DNA of 64,000 bases from Golubevia sp. BC0850 (taxonomy: Eukaryota > Basidiomycota > Exobasidiomycetes > Golubeviales > Golubeviaceae). Every line of letters starts with the position of its first letter. Positions within the stretch are counted from its first letter, which is position 1. Positions 3,021 to 58,100 of this stretch are shown here, piece by piece. The translations under genes were made by a program, and so were the position numbers. Where the stretch lies: positions 744,001 to 808,000 of the forward strand of contig JAAVVG010000011.1 in NCBI GenBank assembly GCA_012976225.1, given 5' to 3'. Below the pieces are notes generated by a model, which worked only from the letters and a program-made list of their open reading frames with translations, searched no databases and was not told the origin of the DNA.

Positions 3021-3808
3021 ACTCTTCTCTCAAAACTGTCAACTCAGTATCTCGAAGGTTTCCTTTTCATCTCCACAGATCAGCTTGGTTCCGCCCTCCC
3101 TTTCTTTTACCCCTTCCCCCGCCCTCTTTTCACTTTATTCGATGTGTCTTTCCTCTCATATTTCTCAGTCACACTTTAGATAGCCTTCACTCTCAGTTTC
3201 GAATTCGTCACGCCTTTTTCTCTTCTACAAGATCCTTCTACTTTTCTTCGGCTAAAGTTTTCAGTTTTGCGACACGCTCTGTCTTATATTTACTTTCACT
3301 CTTATCTTCTCCTAATCTCAAGAATTCAAAAATTTTCAATCGACTGTTCGGAGGGGGTGTGTTGACTGATGAGGAATACTTGTGCGACTTGTTGAGATGA
3401 TGATACTTAGGAAATTTAGTGGGTCCGAAGTGCCATGATTCAGTAATAGGCTACTGAAATTGAGGACCGGCACTCTCGAGAAAGCCAACTGGTTCTCAGA
3501 CTTCAGGTTTCAGGCTTCAGAAAGGAGAACAAACTTCAGACTCGCCACACCTCCCTCCGACTGGTGTTCAAAAGTTCAACTCATTCATTCAAAGCGAGCG
3601 TGAATGACCGACTCGAGGAAGAGAAAGAGTAGATTCTGATTAAAAATACTGAGCAAGGGACTCTCTTTTGGATGGCTATTGGGCGGAAGACGTGTGTGAC
3701 AGGATCTGAAAGACAAAAAAAAAGGGGGGGGGGTCAAAGACTAGCGACAAGAAGAAAGTTGATGGCTTCAAGGTCATCATGCATCAGACTCACCTCCTGT
3801 TGAGATCT
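3021..3808. other. Intergenic region between coiled-coil gene and peptide precursor copy A
   Basis: The first 350 bases are C/T-rich and likely hold the 3' UTR of the upstream gene. From about 3515 the sequence is recognisably related to 36869-37164, the 3' flank of the second peptide precursor. Shared blocks include the stretch at 3547-3600 and the GACTCGAGGAAGAG box. A run of 10 G at 3724-3733 precedes the start of the exactly duplicated block. No convincing gene was seen. Confidence 0.6.
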
Positions 3809-4579
3809 TCAGAACCAACCGTCACAATCGTCAAAGTACCTTTGGTCCCAGATTCCAGTGTCGCAAGGAACTTCCTCTTCGACCCAGAGACCATTGGCTG
3901 CCTTCTTGAGCTTCTTGACAGTCTTTTTGGTTGACTTGCTGGACTTTCTGGCAGCCAGTAACTTCGACGTACAAAGAAGATCGAGAAGGGATGAAAGAGG
4001 AAGGGGGATCGGAGGTCAAAAAAGAAGAAGAATGGAGAAAAGAGAAGCGAAGAAGCTTTTAGTCAACTTTGAAGACTTCAAACTCACCTCCTGGTCAGCT
4101 CTTCTGAACCATGAGTCGTCTCCTCTTTTGAACCAACCATCACAATCATCATTTTCTCCACCGTCAAAGAATCCGGTGTCGCACTCGACCTCTTCCCAGA
4201 GCCCATTGGCTGCCTTTTTTAGCTTCTTCTTAGACTTGCTCTTTCTGGAGTCCAAAGGCTGAAGGATCGGAAAGAAAGAAGGACGAAGGGAGTGAGTCCT
4301 TTGGTGATCAAAAGAGGATTGGTTCACATAAACAGAATTGAAAATCTTGAATCAACCATTCTTTGACTCACATCAGCTTGAAGATTATCCCTGCCTGCAG
4401 GGGGGTTTTTGACACCATCAAGGGCTCTCTGGAGAAGAGATTGGAACAGGTCGACAGGAGTTAGTTCAATCTGTGGCTTCAGAAATTAGGTGAAAGACGT
4501 GACTCACATTCTCGAGAGGCATAGCGAAGACTAAGGAGGCAGAAACGGCAAAAGCTATAGCGATTGATTTGAACAACAT
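3809..4579 (-). CDS. Secreted two-repeat peptide precursor, copy A (candidate Kex2 substrate)
   Basis: My model has four exons: 4579-4508, 4428-4372, 4258-4088 and 3961-3809. All junctions are phase 0, and the product is 150 residues. Residues 1-19 (MLFKSIAIAFAVSASLVFA) are a signal peptide. A short pro-region follows (RALDGV, NPPAGRD), then a Lys-rich linker ending KKLKK. Module 1 begins AANGLW, contains CDTG and ends DDCDGWF. It is followed by KR, the hexapeptide GDDSWF, and RR. A second Lys-rich linker, again ending KKLKK, leads to module 2, which has the same AANGLW start and CDTG, and ends DDCDGWF at the stop codon. Each module has exactly two cysteines. KR and RR are canonical Kex2 sites; KK is weaker. 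I know of no family with this signature. By architecture it resembles Kex2-processed repeat precursors (repellent-, pheromone- or RiPP-like), but it could also be an uncleaved small secreted effector. No biosynthetic neighbour is present. Confidence 0.72.
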
Positions 4580-4738: not shown

Positions 4739-4746
4739 CTTTTATA
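4739..4746 (-). promoter_or_regulatory. TATA box of peptide precursor copy A
   Basis: TATAAAAG lies on the minus strand, 160 bases upstream of the ATG at 4579. Copy B has the same octamer, with the same TATAGTG context on the plus strand, 146 bases upstream of its own ATG. Its survival in a promoter that has otherwise diverged supports function. Confidence 0.6.
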
Positions 4747-36648: not shown

Positions 36649-37164
36649 AAAGAACATTTGGAAGCAACGCATTTCTATGATGCAACTATGAATACTTGAA
36701 GTCAAAGTTGTTCTATTGCTCCGCCTTCCAGTTTCGCTGAAAGATCAGAATCTAGAATCTGAGTAGAGCGAGGTTCCATCCCTGGCGAGATCGTTTTATC
36801 GAACTCACCATGACGTCCTGGCTTGCAGCAACTGATTCCGAGGGAAAAACCTCTTAGGAATTAGAAAAGGCTGAAGAAAGGAGAACAAAATCCAGACATC
36901 TCATCACACCTCCCTCCGACTGGTGTTCAAAAGTTCAACTCATTCAAAGCGAGCGTGGATGTCCGACTCGAGGAAGAGGACAGGTAAGTGTTTGGGTTAC
37001 AAATCCTAAAGATGGGACTCTCGTATGGATAGCTGTTGGACGGGAGAACGTGTGTGGCAGAGTCTGAAAGACAAAATAAAAGGGGGGGGTCAAAGACTAG
37101 CGACAAGAAGAAAGTTGATGGCTTCAAGGTCATCATGCATCAGACTCACCTCCTGTTGAGATCT

Positions 37165-37934
37165 TCAGAACCAACCGTCACAATCGTCAAAGTACCTTTG
37201 GTCCCAGATTCCAGTGTCGCAAGGAACTTCCTCTTCGACCCAGAGACCATTGGCTGCCTTCTTGAGCTTCTTGACAGTCTTTTTGGTTGACTTGCTGGAC
37301 TTTCTGGCAGCCAGTAACTTCGACGTACAAAGAAGATCGAGAAGGGATGAAAGAGGAAGGGGGATCGGAGGTCAAAAAAGAAGAAGAATGGAGAAAAGAG
37401 AAGCGAAGAAGCTTTTAGTCAACTTTGAAGACTTCAAACTCACCTCCTGGTCAGCTCTTCTGAACCATGAGTCGTCTCCTCTTTTGAACCAACCATCACA
37501 ATCATCATTTTCTCCACCGTCAAAGAATCCGGTGTCGCACTCGACCTCTTCCCAGAGCCCATTGGCTGCCTTTTTTAGCTTCTTCTTAGACTTGCTCTTT
37601 CTGGAGTCCAAAGGCTGAAGGATCGGAAAGAAAGAAGGACGAAGGGAGTGAGTCTTTTGGTGATCAAAAATGGATTGGTTCACGTAAACCGAAATGAATA
37701 CCTTTTATCAAGCTTTCTTTGACTCACATCAGCTTGAAAGTTATCCCTGCCTGCAGGGGGGTTGTTGACACCATCGAGGGCTCTCTGGAGAAGAGATTGG
37801 AGCAGATCGAGAGAAGTCAGTTGGATCCTTGAAATAGATAATCAGGTAAAAGGGCTCACGTTCTCCACAGGAGCAGAAAAAGTCAAAGAGGCTGAAAGGA
37901 CTGCGACAGCGATAGCAACCTGTTTGAACAACAT
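37165..37934 (-). CDS. Secreted two-repeat peptide precursor, copy B (candidate Kex2 substrate)
   Basis: Exons 37934-37860, 37784-37728, 37614-37444 and 37317-37165 encode 151 residues. The signal peptide (MLFKQVAIAVAVLSASLTFS) and short pro-region (RALDGVNNPPAGRDNFQAD) differ from copy A, while exons 3 and 4 are identical to it. The same features therefore follow: two modules starting AANGLW with CDTG and DDCDGWF boxes, KR and RR between them, and the second module ending at the stop. Here the upstream alternative acceptor for exon 2 is out of frame; only the CTCCAG acceptor after a pyrimidine tract keeps phase. I therefore used it in both copies. The gene lies directly downstream of MRF1 in opposite orientation (convergent 3' ends, 516 bases apart), whereas copy A converges with the coiled-coil gene. 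Confidence 0.72.
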
Positions 37935-38079: not shown

Positions 38080-38087
38080 CTTTTATA
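38080..38087 (-). promoter_or_regulatory. TATA box of peptide precursor copy B
   Basis: TATAAAAG lies on the minus strand, 146 bases upstream of the ATG at 37934, matching the octamer and context of copy A. Confidence 0.6.
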
Positions 38088-44537: not shown

Positions 44538-47119
44538 ATGGTCTTCCCCGCCAGAATGGCTCATCATCGAGCTGCAGCTTCGGCAGCATCCAGCTCTCTC
44601 AGATCTTCTTTAACTTCAAAAGCCACTTATACTACAACTTCAGCAAGTAGGACTGCCACAGCTACCGGAAAGACTTGTCTCTCAACTCGATCCTTCAATC
44701 CTTCCTCCAGATTCATCTCCTCAAATGCTTCCAACTCTCAAGCCGCTCCAGCCACTCTACCCTCAACTTCTGCGTGAGTATCTGGAATTCCATAACATGC
44801 TGAAAATACAGCTCAGGTTGTGAAGGGCGCAAGACTGGGAGCAAAAGGAGGAAGGAATGACAGCCAAGCAGGGAGTACCTGGGTCTGAGAAGTATGGCAA
44901 AGGACCTTGATGTTGCCTCAGTCAAAACCAATGGTATTCCAAAAAGAGTACAGCGAGCAGCAGATTCCGATTACTTTGTCCTCTCCTCGAGGCCGTTTTG
45001 CCTCGAGACCCTAATTGGGAGGGCTAAGCCCACTGCTTCCTCTCTTTGACTCGGTTGGCTGGAACTCTCTCTCCCAAACAATCGAATCTTCCACTTACCC
45101 GCTTTCCATCTTTTCTACTACTTTCTCTCTTCCTTAACAATCTTCTACGCTCACCTCTTCTCATCCATTCACAGTCGACCTGAACCCTCTCCTGCATTTC
45201 AACAATCGCCGTCATCTAATCCTTCCCCTCTTTCCAAATCCCATGGTCCTGGAGAGATGGACGAGTCCTTCGTTGGAATGTCTGGAGGAGAGATCTTCCA
45301 CGAGATGATGCTACGTCATGATGTCAAGCACGTATTCGGATACCCAGGAGGAGCCATTCTTCCAGTCTTCGATGCTATCTACAACTCTAAGCACTTTGAC
45401 TTCATCCTCCCTAGAAGAGAAGACGGAGCTGGACACATGGCTGAAGGATACGCTCGTGTCTCAGGAAAACCAGGAGTAGTCTTGGTCACCTCTGGTCCAG
45501 GAGCTACCAACGTAATTACTCCAATGCAGGATGCTATGAGTGATGGAACTCCTCTAGTCGTCTTCTGTGGTCAAGTAGCTACCTCTGCTATCGGATCGGA
45601 TGCTTTCCAGGAAGCAGACATCATCGGAATCTCCAGGAGTTGTTCCAAATGGAACGTCATGGTCAAGGACATCGCGGAGCTACCAAGGAGAATCAACGAA
45701 GCTTTCAAGATCGCCACCTCTGGAAGGCCAGGTCCCGTCTTAGTCGATCTCCCAAAGGACGTCACTGCTTCCATTCTTAGGCAGGCAATCCCTTTCAGCA
45801 GCACTCAGCCAAACATGTCCAACATCCCTAGTCGTGCCGCCGCTCGTCCTCGTAGCAGGTCGCAAGGAATGAATATGCGCTACCAGACGGGAGAGGACAA
45901 CTCTCCAGCTCCAGAGATCGCAGCAGCAGCTCGCCTCATCAACATGGCCAAGAGACCTGTCATCTACGCTGGTCAAGGAATGCTCTCCACTCCAGATGGA
46001 CCCAGAATCCTCAAGGAGCTAGCTCACAAGGCCAACATTCCAGTCACCACTACCCTTCAAGGTCTAGGAGGATTCGACGAGACCGACGACCTATCCCTTC
46101 ACATGCTAGGTATGCACGGAAGCGCGTACGCCAACCTTGCCATGCAAGATGCTGATGTCATCATCGCTCTTGGAGCCAGGTTCGACGATCGTGTCACTGG
46201 TCGCGTCGACAAGTTCGCTCCTCATGCAAGGGCAGCTGCTCTCGAAGGACGTGGAGGAATCGTTCATTACGAAATCATGCCAAAGAACATCAACAAGGTA
46301 GTTCAAGCCACCTGCGCTATCGAAGGAGACGTCATTCAGAATCTGTCCAAGACTCTAGAGCACATCAACCCAGTCAGCAAGGAGGAGCGTTCAGAATGGC
46401 TAGCCAAGGTCGCTGGTTGGAAGAAGGCTTATCCCTTCTACTTCGTTCCCTCCGAACCAAGCAAGGGAGAGCTCATGAAGCCTCAGGAAGTCATCGAAGA
46501 GCTAGACCGACAAGTCGCTCACAGGAAGGAGGACGTCATCATCACCACTGGAGTAGGTCAACATCAAATGTGGGCTGCTCAGCATTACAGATGGAGACAC
46601 CCAAGAACCTGGGTCTCTTCCGGAGGATTGGGAACTATGGGATTCGGTCTACCTTCAGCTGTCGGAGCCAAGGTTGCAGCTCCCGAGAAGATCGTAGTTG
46701 ACATCGATGGAGATGCTTCCTTCAGCATGACTGCTATGGAAATGGCCACAGCTTCTCAATTCAACATCGGAGTCAAGATCCTACTTCTCAACAACGAATT
46801 CCAAGGAATGGTTCTTCAGTGGCAAGATCTCTTCTACGAAAAGAGGTATTCTCACACTGCTATGACCAACCCGGATTTCATCAAGCTGGCTCAATCGATG
46901 GGAGTTCACGCTATCTACTGTGATAACCTAGATGATCTACCTGCCAAGATGAAAGAGTTCATCGAATGGGATAACGATAGACCAGTACTCTTCGAAGCTA
47001 GAGTTGTCAAGAATGAACACGTATTCCCAATGGTCGCAGCTGGAAAGGCTCTACATGAACAATTAGTTCACCCAAACCTCAATGCTCCGAATTCAGCTCC
47101 AATTCCTCCAGCCATGTAA
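44538..47119 (+). CDS. ILV2: Acetolactate synthase catalytic subunit, mitochondrial
   Basis: Two exons (44538-44773, 45175-47119) give 726 residues; the 401-nt intron interrupts the presequence region. The Ser/Ala/Arg-rich N-terminus is a mitochondrial targeting peptide. The conserved part includes HVFGYPGGAILPVFDAIY, GAGHMAEGYARVSGKPG, TSGPGATNVITPM, SDAFQEADIIGISRSCSKWN, GRPGPVLVDLPKDVTASIL, GARFDDRVTGRVDKFAP and the ThDP/Mg site (DIDGDASFSMTAMEMATASQ ... LLNNEFQGMVLQWQDLFYE). The enzyme condenses two pyruvates to acetolactate, or pyruvate with 2-ketobutyrate, the first common step of Val/Leu/Ile synthesis, using ThDP, Mg and FAD. Two positions are unusual: the expected HEQ before GAGHMAEG reads RED (the catalytic Glu is kept), and the proline of GQVP reads Ala (GQVATSAIG). 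The regulatory subunit is not in the window. Confidence 0.97.
44986..45007 (+). other. Perfect 8-bp-stem hairpin inside the ILV2 intron
   Basis: CTCGAGGC (44986-44993) and GCCTCGAG (45000-45007) are exact inverse complements separated by six bases. It lies in the second half of an intron that is about four times longer than most here. It may be an RNA structure near the branch-point region or simply chance. Confidence 0.5.
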
Positions 47120-53469: not shown

Positions 53470-55135
53470 CTTTGATTAAAAGAGAGTGATGAAGGAGGGG
53501 AAGAGAGATGGAGGAAAGGGAAAGAAGAAAGAAAGCTGGAACAGAATTCCTTTTCAACGCGGGATCTGTCAAATTCCGATCGGATTTTGACAACCCCATC
53601 GCCACATCTCTCTGTGAGATTGATGGTATCGGATCTTGAAACCCTTGAAGTGCTTAATTAGTGTGGATTCTAAGGTTATCCAAACAGAATCGGTATCTGT
53701 GAAATGTGAAAGTTGGAGAGAAGACCATGTATGTACGACCAACTGTCACTCGCAGCGCAGGGACGGACCCGAAAAGAGTAGAGGAGGAACGGGATGTCTT
53801 CCAACCATTGGGTCAATTCCAACAAAGTTCTCTTCCAACTGAAGCGCTGAAGCGCTGAGGCCCGACGGACTGCCAGCATCGATTCTTTTCGTTGACCTAG
53901 AAAGAAAGGACCTTTGTGCCAGTGAACTATCCATCGTTGGTGAAGAGATACTACAGCCGCAGCTGTAAACGCTTATGCCCAAGCGCTCAAGTTTGAACAC
54001 TGGCAAAGTTTTCGCATTTGAAGGAGCCAGATGTTGGTGTTTGGATTGAGGTTGCTTGATGGGTCCAAAATGTTTGAGGCAAATAGTGATTTGGCGTGGC
54101 CACCTTCTTCTCTCCTTCACACATCCTCATAATTCTTCAGTAAACGCAGCTACCATTCTAGCACCTGTTTACGGTTGTCAACTGCTTTCATTCAAGCGAA
54201 TCAACTCAAACCAGACAACTTCAATTCAAGTTCATCGTTTAGATCATCTAACAGACAACCCATCCAAGAATCTATTTCTATTTCAAACCCACTCTAGTAC
54301 ACCCACCCTCAACAATTCTTCAACCTTTTCACTTGGACCGGAAGCTGGTTCATCTTTTTCTGAATTGATTTCAGTCGTTTCTTACTTGAAAGAAGCGCTC
54401 ATCAGATAAAGAGGGCGAGACAGGCCTCTCTCTTCTCTCCACTTCCAACCACCAAAGGTGAGTCCTCATCTTGCCCTCCTCTCTCCGACGCGCGGCTGCT
54501 TGGTGGACAGATGGAAAGGGCGCTGAAACTAACTTCAGAGATCAAGGAATATTTTAAGAATGAAATCGGAAGACATTGGCTATGGATGGGAAGAGGAAGT
54601 AAGGCAGTTGTGTAATAGAGAGGTCCGTGTGGAATTCCGAGCCTTCTAGCTCTTTCCTTTAAGCCTAATAGACCTCTCTCCCACGTCTTTGTGAATTCAT
54701 CAAGATGGATAGATCAGAACTGAGAGATCTCGTGACGCACATCAGGTCTCCGCGCTTGATGCTGCGACTTTGGTGGCACAAAAAGTTGGACCCTTCTCTA
54801 GTCCTGCAATTCCCTGCTCACACTCCCACTCCAAACCTCACTCTTTGTCACAGGTTTCCCAACCCCATTTCGTTATCTTTTCAATCGTAACTCTCTTGGG
54901 TCACTGTTGAAGGCTTCGAATCCAACTATCAACTTCGAGTAAGACAAGCAGGTTTCTCTCAACCCACGTCTCTCAATATTGTAACTGCGTCCGATTTCGC
55001 TACGCATCAAAGTTCAGTCAAATATCTCTATACAGCCTCTACTCAGGTTCAACAATCTCAATCCAACTCCAACACTTCAACCACAACTCCAAGTTCTACC
55101 ACCACCACCACCTCTAATTCTAAATCAAAGCCACC
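53470..55135. other. Divergent intergenic region between FAD oxidase and WC-1
   Basis: The 1.67 kb holds both promoters. The last 130 bases before the WC-1 ATG are rich in CAA/CCA-type low-complexity sequence (CAACTCCAACACTTCAACC and similar), as in unstructured 5' UTRs. Short open frames at 53636-54409 show no protein-like continuity. No RNA gene was seen. Confidence 0.5.
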
Positions 55136-58100
55136 ATGTCTCCAAGCTTCGATTTCTCTGCCTTCATTAACGGCAATTCTCCTGGCAATCCAGACCTTCA
55201 ATCTTCCCTCAATCGATCGGACAACAACGATCCTTTCTCCAACGTGCCCCACTTAGGCGAGTCATCTTCGATGCTGATGCCTTCAAGTTGGGCCCTTCCA
55301 ACACTAGAAAGTGGACCTCTGACTTCCGTTCCAGCCGGAACAGGAGGAATCGATGTCTACCATTCTAGTGGTCCTGCTGGCTCTATCCAAAGGGAATCCA
55401 ACACTCAAGGGGTTCCAATCTTCACAGCTGGGGCACCCGAGAGTTACCGAGCTTCAATCGCAGCTCATCACTCTCATCTCCTCAATTCTGGTCTCAGTAG
55501 ATCCAAGAGACCCTTCCCAACTCGTCCAGCTGGTTTCGCCAAGTCGTCCTTGGCCGGAGGAGGAGCAGGAGGAGCTCACAGCGCTCCAAGTGTCCCTCGC
55601 AGTCTACAAGCCCTCAATCAAAAAGGACTCACTCTGCAAGAACGTCGTCGTCTCTCCCGTCGAGCCATCGCAGAGAAACCTGTCAGTCATCAAAGCTCTA
55701 GGTCTGGATCAAGAAGCAAACACAGCGGCTCATCTGAAGAGGGGATGACTTCTCAAACTTCGATTCGTACCGGAAAGCGTCATTCAAGAAGACACCATCG
55801 CAGCAGTCGTACCTCTTCATCTAGACAAGAACCCAGTTCCTCAAGTTCTATGCCAACTTCTCTACCAAGATCAATTCCTTCAGACCCTAGGATGAAGGAG
55901 GAGGATTCGGAATCTCTCTACGGAAATAGCAAGACGGGAGAGATCTACTCTGCAAGTGGGTTCGACATGCTAGGTGCTCTCATGCGCGTTGCTAATCGTC
56001 CAAACAAGCAAATCGCTCTAGGAACGGTCGATCTCTCCTGCTCCTTCACCGTCTCAGACGCCAGACATTCAGAGCACCCTCTCATCTACTGCAGCGAGAC
56101 CTTCACCCGTCTCACTGGCTACGAAATGGATGAGATCATCGGTCGCAATTGTAGATTCCTTCAATCTCCAAACAACTCGATCAGCAAAGGAGATCTGAGA
56201 GAACATACCGATCATCGAGCCGTTCAACACCTTCAGAAGAACCTCAAGGACAAGCAGGAGTGTCAAGTCAGTCTCATCAACTATCGCAAGGACGGAACTC
56301 CTTTCATCAACTTGGTCACTATCATTCCAATCAGCTGGGATACTCCTGGCGAAATCGAGTTCTTCGTAGGTTTCCAGGTGGATCTCATGGAGCAGCCAGG
56401 TGCAATCTTGGAGCGTACTCCTGAAGGTCTCTACGTCGTCAATTACGCCACTGCCTCTGCTCCAATCCCCGTTCCCGCTGCTCTGGTCCACGGAGGAACC
56501 GAATCAGAGGAGGAGAAACAAGCTCTACTAGCCAAAGATCTAACTCAGCTCATCGACGACGGCTCCAACGACACCAAACTCTGGTCTCGTCTTCTTCTAG
56601 ACCAATCTCACGATCTGGTCTTCGTTTTGTCTCTCAAAGGCAACTTCCTCTACATGTCACCTTCTTCTGAACGTCTCCTTGGCTACAAACCTCACGAGAT
56701 GGTCGGAAAGAGTATCAGTGAATTCTGTCATCCAAGTGACGTCGTTCCACTCTTCAGAGAGCTCAAAGATTCGACCAGCAACGCTAGCATTTCTGCAGCT
56801 GCTAAGAGATTCACTAGAGCTGATGGAAGCGCCAATCCTTTGACAAGAGGTGGTTCTGGACAGTCTGGTCCAAGAGTCAACCTTTTGATGAGGATGCGTC
56901 ACAAGACTGCTGATTACATTTGGATTGAGAGTTGTGGAAAACGTGAGTATCACAAGAGATGGACTTTCTCTTTGTCAGGCTGAAAGACATGTTGGAGGTT
57001 TCGCTCATCCTTAATCCCGCCCTCGCTCTCACTTCCCTCTTTCAGTACATCTCGAGCAAGGAAAAGGAAGGAAAGTAGTGATCTCCAGTGGCAGAATCAG
57101 ACCAATCTACAATCTGCCTTGGGAGAAGGTCAATCAGACCAGTCAGATCAAAGAGGCTTCTTTCTGGACCAGAGCCTCAAAGGATGGGCTCATACTGAAC
57201 GCCACTGCTCCTTCCGTCGACGTCATCGGCATCACTGCTCATCAAATGTCAGGCTCTCACCTTGGTCGATTGGCTACTGGAAAGAACGCGACTGCTCTCA
57301 TGGAAGCCCTTAAAGGTTCAGCCACCAAGAGTGTAGAGCACGAGCTAGATGATGGAGCTGGTCTCGTCGTTCCTGTCATCTCCACCGTCTACCCTCAGGC
57401 CTTCAACTCGACCTCTGACACTCAGACGGTCTTTGTTCGTACTCAGATGGCTTCGAGCAAGCCTGCTGCTCCCAAGCAACCCGGGGGTATGGATGTCGAC
57501 GGAGCTATGGACGTAGGAATGAAACAAGGAGCTGGAGGTTTCTTCCCAGCTGCTCCTAACGCTCCCTCCTCCGACCGTCACGGTTCTTCTGTTCAGCCCT
57601 CGTCATCCAAGCTTGACCGAGAGGATTCAGAGATGTCTCCGACCATGGACTCGTCCGCCAATGTCTTCAACGAACTATCGACTGACGCTTCTAGCTCTTG
57701 GATCTTCGAGCTACATCAGTTGAAGAACTCGAACCGAAGATTGAGAGAGACACTCAAATCTTTGAGAGTTTCTCGGCATCAAGCTGAGGAAGACGGGGCT
57801 GATGGATCTTCGGAAGAGGCCACTTCTTCTGCTTCAGGAGGAGGAAGCACCAATCAGCAGGTCAACCATTCCAAACCCACGATTGGAAAGGATAGAGGAG
57901 GAGCGGATCTCTCACTTCAAGGTCCAGCTCTCGCTCATCTGCATTCCTTTTCGAACAGTGGATCTGGATCGGGATCAGCCTCTGGATCTCACACGGATCT
58001 CTTCGATCAAGTTGGTGCTCTCAACTCTCGAATTCCTTCTGACGATACAGAGGTGACTTCCGGAGGCAGTAGTGGTGGAAGTGACGAAATTACTCAAGCT

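Follow-up and report, generated by a model that had tools for sequence, protein, structure and literature searches.

A Three-Copy Gene Family Encoding Secreted-Looking Small Peptide Precursors in Golubevia sp. BC0850

Results

Structure of the Copy A Gene

The window analyzed here is a 64,000-nucleotide stretch of the Golubevia sp. BC0850 genome (contig JAAVVG010000011.1, positions 744,001 to 808,000). Its minus strand carries a gene, designated copy A, that runs from 4579 to 3809, with the ATG at 4577-4579, the TGA at 3809-3811, and four coding exons. The spliced product of 150 aa reads MLFKSIAIAFAVSASLVFAMPLEN-RALDGVKNPPAGRDNLQAD-PLDSRKSKSKKKLKK-AANGLWEEVECDTGFFDGGENDDCDGWF-KR-GDDSWF-RR-ADQE-LLAARKSSKSTKKTVKKLKK-AANGLWVEEEVPCDTGIWDQRYFDDCDGWF, followed by the stop codon. 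Two further copies, B and C61, are described below and were used to refine the following features of copy A.

4740..4746, minus strand: TATAAAA box-like sequence, read directly from the sequence (copy B counterpart upstream at 38081-38087)
4508..4579, minus strand: exon 1, signal-peptide-like N-terminus MLFKSIAIAFAVSASLVFAMPLEN, best 12-residue mean Kyte-Doolittle value 2.47
4429..4507, minus strand: intron 1, 79 nt, GTGAGT...CTCCAG, with an acceptor that works in all three copies
4372..4428, minus strand: exon 2, RALDGVKNPPAGRDNLQAD, from copy comparison
4259..4371, minus strand: intron 2, 113 nt
4088..4258, minus strand: exon 3, 57 codons, phase 0-0, containing a Lys-rich stretch, module 1, KR-GDDSWF-RR, and ADQE
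4130..4213, minus strand: module 1, AANGLWEEVECDTGFFDGGENDDCDGWF, 28 aa, net charge -9, two Cys (position counted from exon 3)
4124..4129, minus strand: KR, Kex2-type site directly after module 1
4106..4123, minus strand: GDDSWF hexapeptide, flanked by KR and RR
4100..4105, minus strand: RR, Kex2-type site
3962..4087, minus strand: intron 3, 126 nt
3809..3961, minus strand: exon 4, coding part with stop, containing a Lys-rich stretch and module 2
3812..3901, minus strand: module 2, AANGLWVEEEVPCDTGIWDQRYFDDCDGWF, 30 aa, net charge -7, two Cys, abutting the stop codon (position counted from exon 4)
3794..3808, minus strand: untranslated remainder of exon 4, five codons past the stop, from the exon 3/exon 4 alignment
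3706..3793, minus strand: predicted 3'UTR intron, 88 nt, GTGAGT...TTTCAG, whose C61 counterpart lies within coding sequence

Two acceptors for exon 2 are in frame in copy A, at 4470 and 4428. When the sequences of the three copies were read together, the 4428 acceptor was the sole one with the frame kept in all three, and exon 2 was therefore placed at 4372-4428; the equivalent of the 4470 acceptor produces a frameshift in copy B and is missing from C61. A CTAAC branch-point-like sequence lies in intron 1 upstream of 4428. The modelled coding exons are all multiples of three, so the introns are phase 0. A splice donor ends exon 4 at 15 nt past the stop, and is followed by the predicted 88-nt intron and a non-coding fifth exon. 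As far as comparison of the copies goes, these results confirm the four coding exons proposed in a preliminary description of this DNA, with the placement of exon 2 refined and the fifth exon added.

The window also contains a single open frame for acetolactate synthase (45050-47116) and, at 55124-56980, a reading frame with several PAS domain matches that we take to be white-collar-like. Scans of the window for tRNA genes (bacterial code) and against Rfam gave no matches.

The Two Modules and Their Origin

The two modules of copy A, one per exon, share the layout KKLKK-AANGLW...CDTG...DDCDGWF, each with two Cys. A Lys-rich stretch ending in KKLKK precedes each of them, this being PLDSRKSKSKKKLKK for module 1 and LLAARKSSKSTKKTVKKLKK for module 2. 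Module 1 leads into KR-GDDSWF-RR and module 2 into the stop codon, and both end in DCDGWF. All of the sequence features previously listed for the locus were thus found: two modules, each with KKLKK in front of it and two Cys within it, the KR-GDDSWF-RR segment, and identical DCDGWF ends. The two Cys stand 12 residues apart in every copy of module 1, and likewise in module 2 of A and B.

Alignment of the two module stretches at the DNA level gave a score of 73, compared to a maximum of 29 in 500 shuffles, and alignment of exon 3 (171 nt) end to end with exon 4 up to its donor (168 nt) gave a score of 83, compared to a maximum of -13 in 300 shuffles, the controls in both cases being plain base shuffles. 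The exon alignment extends to a common CAGGAG/GTGAGT at the donor and contains a single 24-nt gap in exon 4 and five short gaps, 21 nt in total, in exon 3. The stop codon of exon 4 is aligned with an Arg codon of the exon 3 RR site. Because the exons align end to end, the second module looks like a duplicate of the whole exon, and the 15 nt past the stop may be read as a relic of that duplicated exon.

Copies B and C61 and a Tract of Identity

The genome (25.8 Mb, 64 contigs) contains at least six matches to a 49-residue piece of exon 3, and these come from three genes: copy A; copy B, located in the same window from 37934 to 37165; and a gene (L003) on contig C61, here called the C61 copy. 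Copies B and C61 both lie beyond what the preliminary description had listed. The features of copy B and of the tract that it shares with copy A are as follows.

37860..37934, minus strand: copy B exon 1, MLFKQVAIAVAVLSASLTFSAPVEN
37728..37784, minus strand: copy B exon 2
37444..37614, minus strand: copy B exon 3, no differences from copy A
37165..37317, minus strand: copy B exon 4, no differences from copy A
3734..4298, minus strand: identical tract, copy A side, 565 bp, extending from the last 40 bp of intron 2 through exon 3, intron 3, and exon 4 to 75 bp past the stop
37090..37654, minus strand: identical tract, copy B side, coordinates set by shifting those of copy A by 33356

Copies A and B are direct duplicates separated by 33 kb, with a matching block of 1.1 kb at 90%. 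Ungapped identity between A and B is 0.78 in the 5' flank, 0.82 in exon 1, 0.80 in intron 1, 0.93 in exon 2, 0.89 over the full intron 2 (of which the last 40 bp fall within the identical tract), and 0.86 over positions 3500-3699. Because 565 bp that include both module exons are identical while the sequence outside differs by about 7-22%, the simplest reading is a recent gene conversion around the peptide exons; the alternative is an assembly artefact.

The C61 copy is 58% identical to copy A over 152 aligned residues. Its neighborhood (9.9 kb) matched the window by blastn at the gene itself only, with no common neighbors, and the extra matches found by tblastx were only short pieces scattered elsewhere. 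Conservation of the dibasic sites and module boxes in homologues had been set beforehand as a test of the preliminary description, and in C61 the outcome differs between the modules. In module 1, AANG-W and DDCDGWF are retained, the two Cys are again 12 residues apart, and a KKR site is present. The RR site is replaced by QR. Neither AANGLW nor KKLKK is found in module 2, where Arg also stands in place of the second Cys. There is no stop after the second module, the frame reading on by way of SRSELK into a 16-residue tail encoded by the last exon, and so the intron matching the 3'UTR intron of copy A sits in the coding region. Copies A, B, and C61 are a real three-copy gene family of secreted-looking small peptide precursors.

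Conservation of the Coding Sequence

Of the 99 nucleotides aligned between the two copy A modules, 24 differ, and 14 of the differences fall at third positions. The result is 7 residue changes compared to the 15.7 expected when 24 changes are placed randomly, and none of 5000 simulations gave a number as low. Between copies A and C61, we found 19 residue changes in exon 3 (26.7 expected, P=0.0012), 26 in exons 2 and 3 together (33.9 expected, P=0.0046), 20 in exon 4 (24.7 expected, P=0.02), and 12 in exon 1 (16.2 expected, P=0.01). Nei-Gojobori estimates for the same pair were dN 0.22 and dS 0.78 for exon 3, and dN 0.41 and dS 0.89 for exon 4. On the footing of one independent homologue (C61) and the repeat itself, these data show a signature of purifying selection on the module. 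Ungapped identity of A and C61 was 0.70, 0.81, 0.79, and 0.74 for exons 1 to 4, and 0.74, 0.76, 0.72, and 0.76 for introns 1 to 4, with 0.79 for the 120 bp upstream. Since the introns and upstream sequence are nearly as similar as the exons, the constraint on the coding exons appears only moderate.

Candidate Processing Sites and Proteases

All three copies have a hydrophobic N-terminus by hydropathy. The signal peptide of the preliminary description can accordingly be called signal-peptide-like, which is as far as hydropathy goes.

In copies A and C61, every internal W-F or W-L end (five of five) is followed within 2-3 residues by Arg (KR, RR, KKR, QR, SR), a count that should be read with the knowledge that the W[F/L] pattern was picked after the sequence had been seen and that copy B repeats A. 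In A and B the stop codon immediately follows the last WF. The residues after the copy A sites are acidic at P2' in KR↓GD, and small at P1' and acidic at P2' in RR↓AD. Acidic or small residues at these positions are over-represented at the cleaved sites of four yeast Kex2 enzymes, and positively charged residues are under-represented, according to PMC2515848. The genome has one P-domain match, which belongs to a subtilisin-kexin gene with S8 and P domains on contig C5; it also has 19 peptidase S10 matches (counted as exons), candidates for Kex1, and one DPPIV/Ste13-type gene. For Kex2-processed repeat proteins (KEPs), the route is described as Kex2 cleavage followed by Kex1 trimming, and single-Arg cuts are also reported in KEP processing (PMC9769878).

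It is uncertain where the N-terminal cut would fall. Lys precedes AANG both in module 1 (all three copies) and in module 2 (A and B), and the Kex2 P1 residue is described as 'almost exclusively an Arg' (PMC8528282), so KK↓AANGLW would be a weak Kex2 site. An expanded Kex2 motif has P1 Arg with P4 Leu, LxxR (PMC8528282). The sequence L-x-x-R-K-S opens each Lys stretch of A and B, as LDSR↓KS and LAAR↓KS; C61 has LTPR↓KS in exon 4 and, in exon 3, LASKKS without Arg. PAGR↓D is present in all three copies. The Kex2 processing put forward in the preliminary description therefore stands as a prediction for the KR and RR sites, with their yeast-like following residues and a kexin gene in the genome, and is doubtful for the cut after KKLKK, where P1 is Lys.

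Copy A has 10 dibasic pairs, 8 of them within Lys-rich stretches, and such pairs weigh little as evidence, being expected in a Lys-rich protein. A fold prediction for exon 3, made from a 3-row alignment in which the C61 row started with M (GTG read as start), had a mean pLDDT of 60, too weak to judge disulfides. An EF-hand-like reading of the N-x-D-x-D-G in module 1 was also considered and was dropped because module 2 has Phe at the first position.

Searches for Relatives

A single-sequence protein search with a 164-aa model using the 4470 acceptor gave 67 candidates, none at E<=10. Nor did the corrected precursors of the three genes, the C61 one lacking its final 16 residues, have a match at E<=10 among the 7995 best word-sharing candidates. 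The neighboring acetolactate synthase served as a control query and found many basidiomycete proteins, the best named one being from Tilletiaria anomala (81% identity), with further named matches from Violaceomyces, Thecaphora, Testicularia, and other smut relatives; annotated smut relatives (named Ustilaginomycotina) are thus present in the protein collection. One nearer entry matched the control at 85% over 83% of the query, and another at 100%. The control matches put the genome in or near Ustilaginomycotina. A potential concern is that gene callers can miss a gene with exons of 57-171 nt, and that no close relative was among the matches by name. Besides true novelty, a shortage of close relatives in the collection and the overlooking of small exons could equally account for the failure to find homologues.

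No Pfam family scored above its gathering score (best DUF4110, 10.8 bits compared to a cut-off of 27), and a profile search of the PDB found no relative, its single match at E=1.3 being taken as chance. The view that the precursor belongs to no recognized family agrees with these searches of the protein collection, Pfam, and the PDB. Four module peptide strings were absent from the running text of the papers searched. Although of a known general kind, the family has no precedent in these searches, nor does its two-module layout.

Searches of the genome for UstYa/DUF3328 and for STE2 gave no match, as was also the case in 14 of 14 control genomes for each. The RiPP-like role that had been left open is without support, the UstYa/DUF3328 search being as empty here as in its 14 control genomes. 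STE3-type pheromone receptor matches (L012 and L013) are present on contig C62 at 362016-363056. A mating-locus reading of the peptide genes was dropped, as the STE3 match is on another contig.

Discussion

Comparison with Known Precursors

The precursors resemble KEPs in their signal-peptide-like start, in near-identical repeated cores between basic sites, and in being small and secreted-looking. They differ in having two repeats, two Cys per core, and KK rather than KR before the cores. The KEP surveys call for at least three repeats, given as repeats of at least 8 residues each by Umemura 2020 (PMC7329392) and as at least three similar fragments by Le Marquer 2019 (PMC6339444). Copy A has two full modules, and its third WF unit, GDDSWF, has 6 residues. 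The module flanks of A and B, with KKLKK before and KR or the stop after, fit the KEP flank criterion (KR, RR, KK, RK), and C61 has basic flanks at module 1 only (RK before, KKR after). Judged from its sequence, the precursor would work like KEPs, yet it is no member by their working definitions.

By lineage, the nearest comparison is Rep1 of Ustilago maydis. Rep1 and the other repetitive secreted proteins of that fungus come from Kex2-cut precursors, as is predicted for our genes, in a smut that probably belongs to the same subphylum (PMC7329392, PMC8528282). Rep1 is described as giving at least eight surface-active, amyloid-forming repellents (PMC7329392, PMC8528282), whereas two acidic Cys peptides are predicted here, a distinction drawn from the description of Rep1 (PMC7329392, PMC6339444, PMC8528282) and not from an alignment. 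K2PP effectors, which have a pro-domain removed by Kex2 (PMC8528282), could have in common with our precursors the Kex2 removal of an N-terminal pro-region, which PAGR↓D would allow, but here the repeat and the WF-KR junctions lie inside the chain. Dikaritin/ustiloxin RiPP precursors combine a signal peptide with Kex2-cut cores, as is predicted here. Their cores are shorter than the module cores found here, and the UstYa search, which had no working control, gave no match.

Two-Cys alpha-type pheromone precursors, and a two-Cys KEP of the basidiomycete yeast Trichosporon oleaginosus, QSWGGCGGRGTPCW (Le Marquer et al., PMC6339444), share with the modules two Cys, an aromatic end, and a possible Ste13 signature. 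The ring and the peptide are longer here, and the comparison is one of features and not of sequence similarity. Hormone-like roles have been suggested for basidiomycete KEPs with Ste13 signatures (Le Marquer et al., PMC6339444).

Proposed Processing and Alternatives

The model we favor, and hold to be probable with a good measure of doubt, is that of a lineage-specific precursor cut by Kex2 and then Kex1 after D-x-W-F-[K/R]R to give acidic two-Cys peptides ending in DGWF. Secretion, cleavage, the Cys ring, and the action of the peptides are all matters that we infer. The precursor would enter the secretory pathway through its signal-peptide-like start, the fungal kexin would cut after D-x-W-F-KR and D-x-W-F-RR, and a Kex1-type carboxypeptidase would trim off the basic residues. 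Together with the natural C-terminus of the chain, these cuts would yield two acidic peptides, each of the AANGLW..CDTG..DDCDGWF type with its Cys pair, plus the hexapeptide GDDSWF, and all released peptides would end in D[G/S]WF-COOH. The N-terminal ends could be at KKLKK↓AANGLW, or at the upstream LxxR↓KS with the Lys-rich tail kept, with the DGWF end the same either way. Each Cys pair, 12 residues apart, would probably close a 14-residue ring, and the peptides would most likely act extracellularly, as a self-signal of the fungus or in contact with other organisms. C61, the sole homologue not homogenized with A, counts against this model in having lost RR and most of module 2, and so do the small margin by which its coding exons exceed its introns in likeness to A and the lack of a P1 Arg before AANGLW.

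The choice of N-terminal cut leads to a possible but tentative variant in which the Lys-rich stretches belong to the active peptides, cleavage at LxxR↓KS and KR/RR producing bipolar 38- and 45-residue peptides with a cationic tail and an acidic Cys ring, perhaps membrane- or wall-binding. In keeping with this, L-x-x-R-K-S occurs in exons 3 and 4 of A and B and in C61 exon 4, and its P1 Arg and P4 Leu agree with the expanded Kex2 motif, KK having no P1 Arg (PMC8528282). The LASKKS of C61 exon 3 does not fit, and P1' would be Lys, whose positive charge is under-represented after cleaved sites, while KK↓AA has small P1' and P2' residues (PMC2515848); in addition, KK is accepted as a flanking site by both KEP pipelines (PMC6339444, PMC7329392). 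Cleavage itself would be dispensed with if the product were an uncut small secreted protein carrying two Cys modules on one chain, an ordinary candidate effector or surface protein. This we consider unlikely: the recurrence of WF-[K/R]R junctions and the alignment of a stop codon with a basic codon of the exon 3 dibasic site argue for cutting, even though A and B have four Cys per chain, the product looks secreted and has no homologue in the protein searches, and C61 keeps the chain with its second dibasic site gone.

A functional version of the favored model would make the product an alpha-type-pheromone-like peptide hormone with a G-protein-coupled receptor. The two Cys, the Trp near the N-terminus, the aromatic C-terminus, and a possible Ste13 signature of A-A after the basic site all recall such hormones, and the Trichosporon oleaginosus peptide provides a precedent (PMC6339444). 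That peptide has 6 residues between its Cys compared to 12 here, with the likeness drawn from features; the genome gave no STE2 match (nor did any of the 14 control genomes), and the mating-receptor match that was found is STE3. We regard this version as quite doubtful. Least probable, by a wide measure, is a decaying gene family without function. The degenerate second module of C61 and exon conservation barely above that of introns are what decay would produce, but against it stand open frames and GT-AG junctions in all three modelled copies, purifying selection, and the recent homogenization of A and B.

Implications

Two-module precursors fall under the KEP survey threshold of three repeats, so that the surveys of PMC6339444 and PMC7329392 would miss them; copies A, B, and C61 suggest that such precursors can be real, multi-copy, and homogenized by gene conversion. 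It is a more speculative and rather improbable proposal that they represent a new lineage-restricted family of Cys-ring peptide hormones, with a pair per precursor made by exon duplication, a common DGWF end, a constant 12-residue Cys spacing, identity of A and B maintained by gene conversion around the peptide exons, and a receptor of their own. If the peptides are made, they would provide a defined and easily synthesized ligand ending in DDCDGWF with which signaling or interaction could be tested in a little-studied, smut-related lineage.
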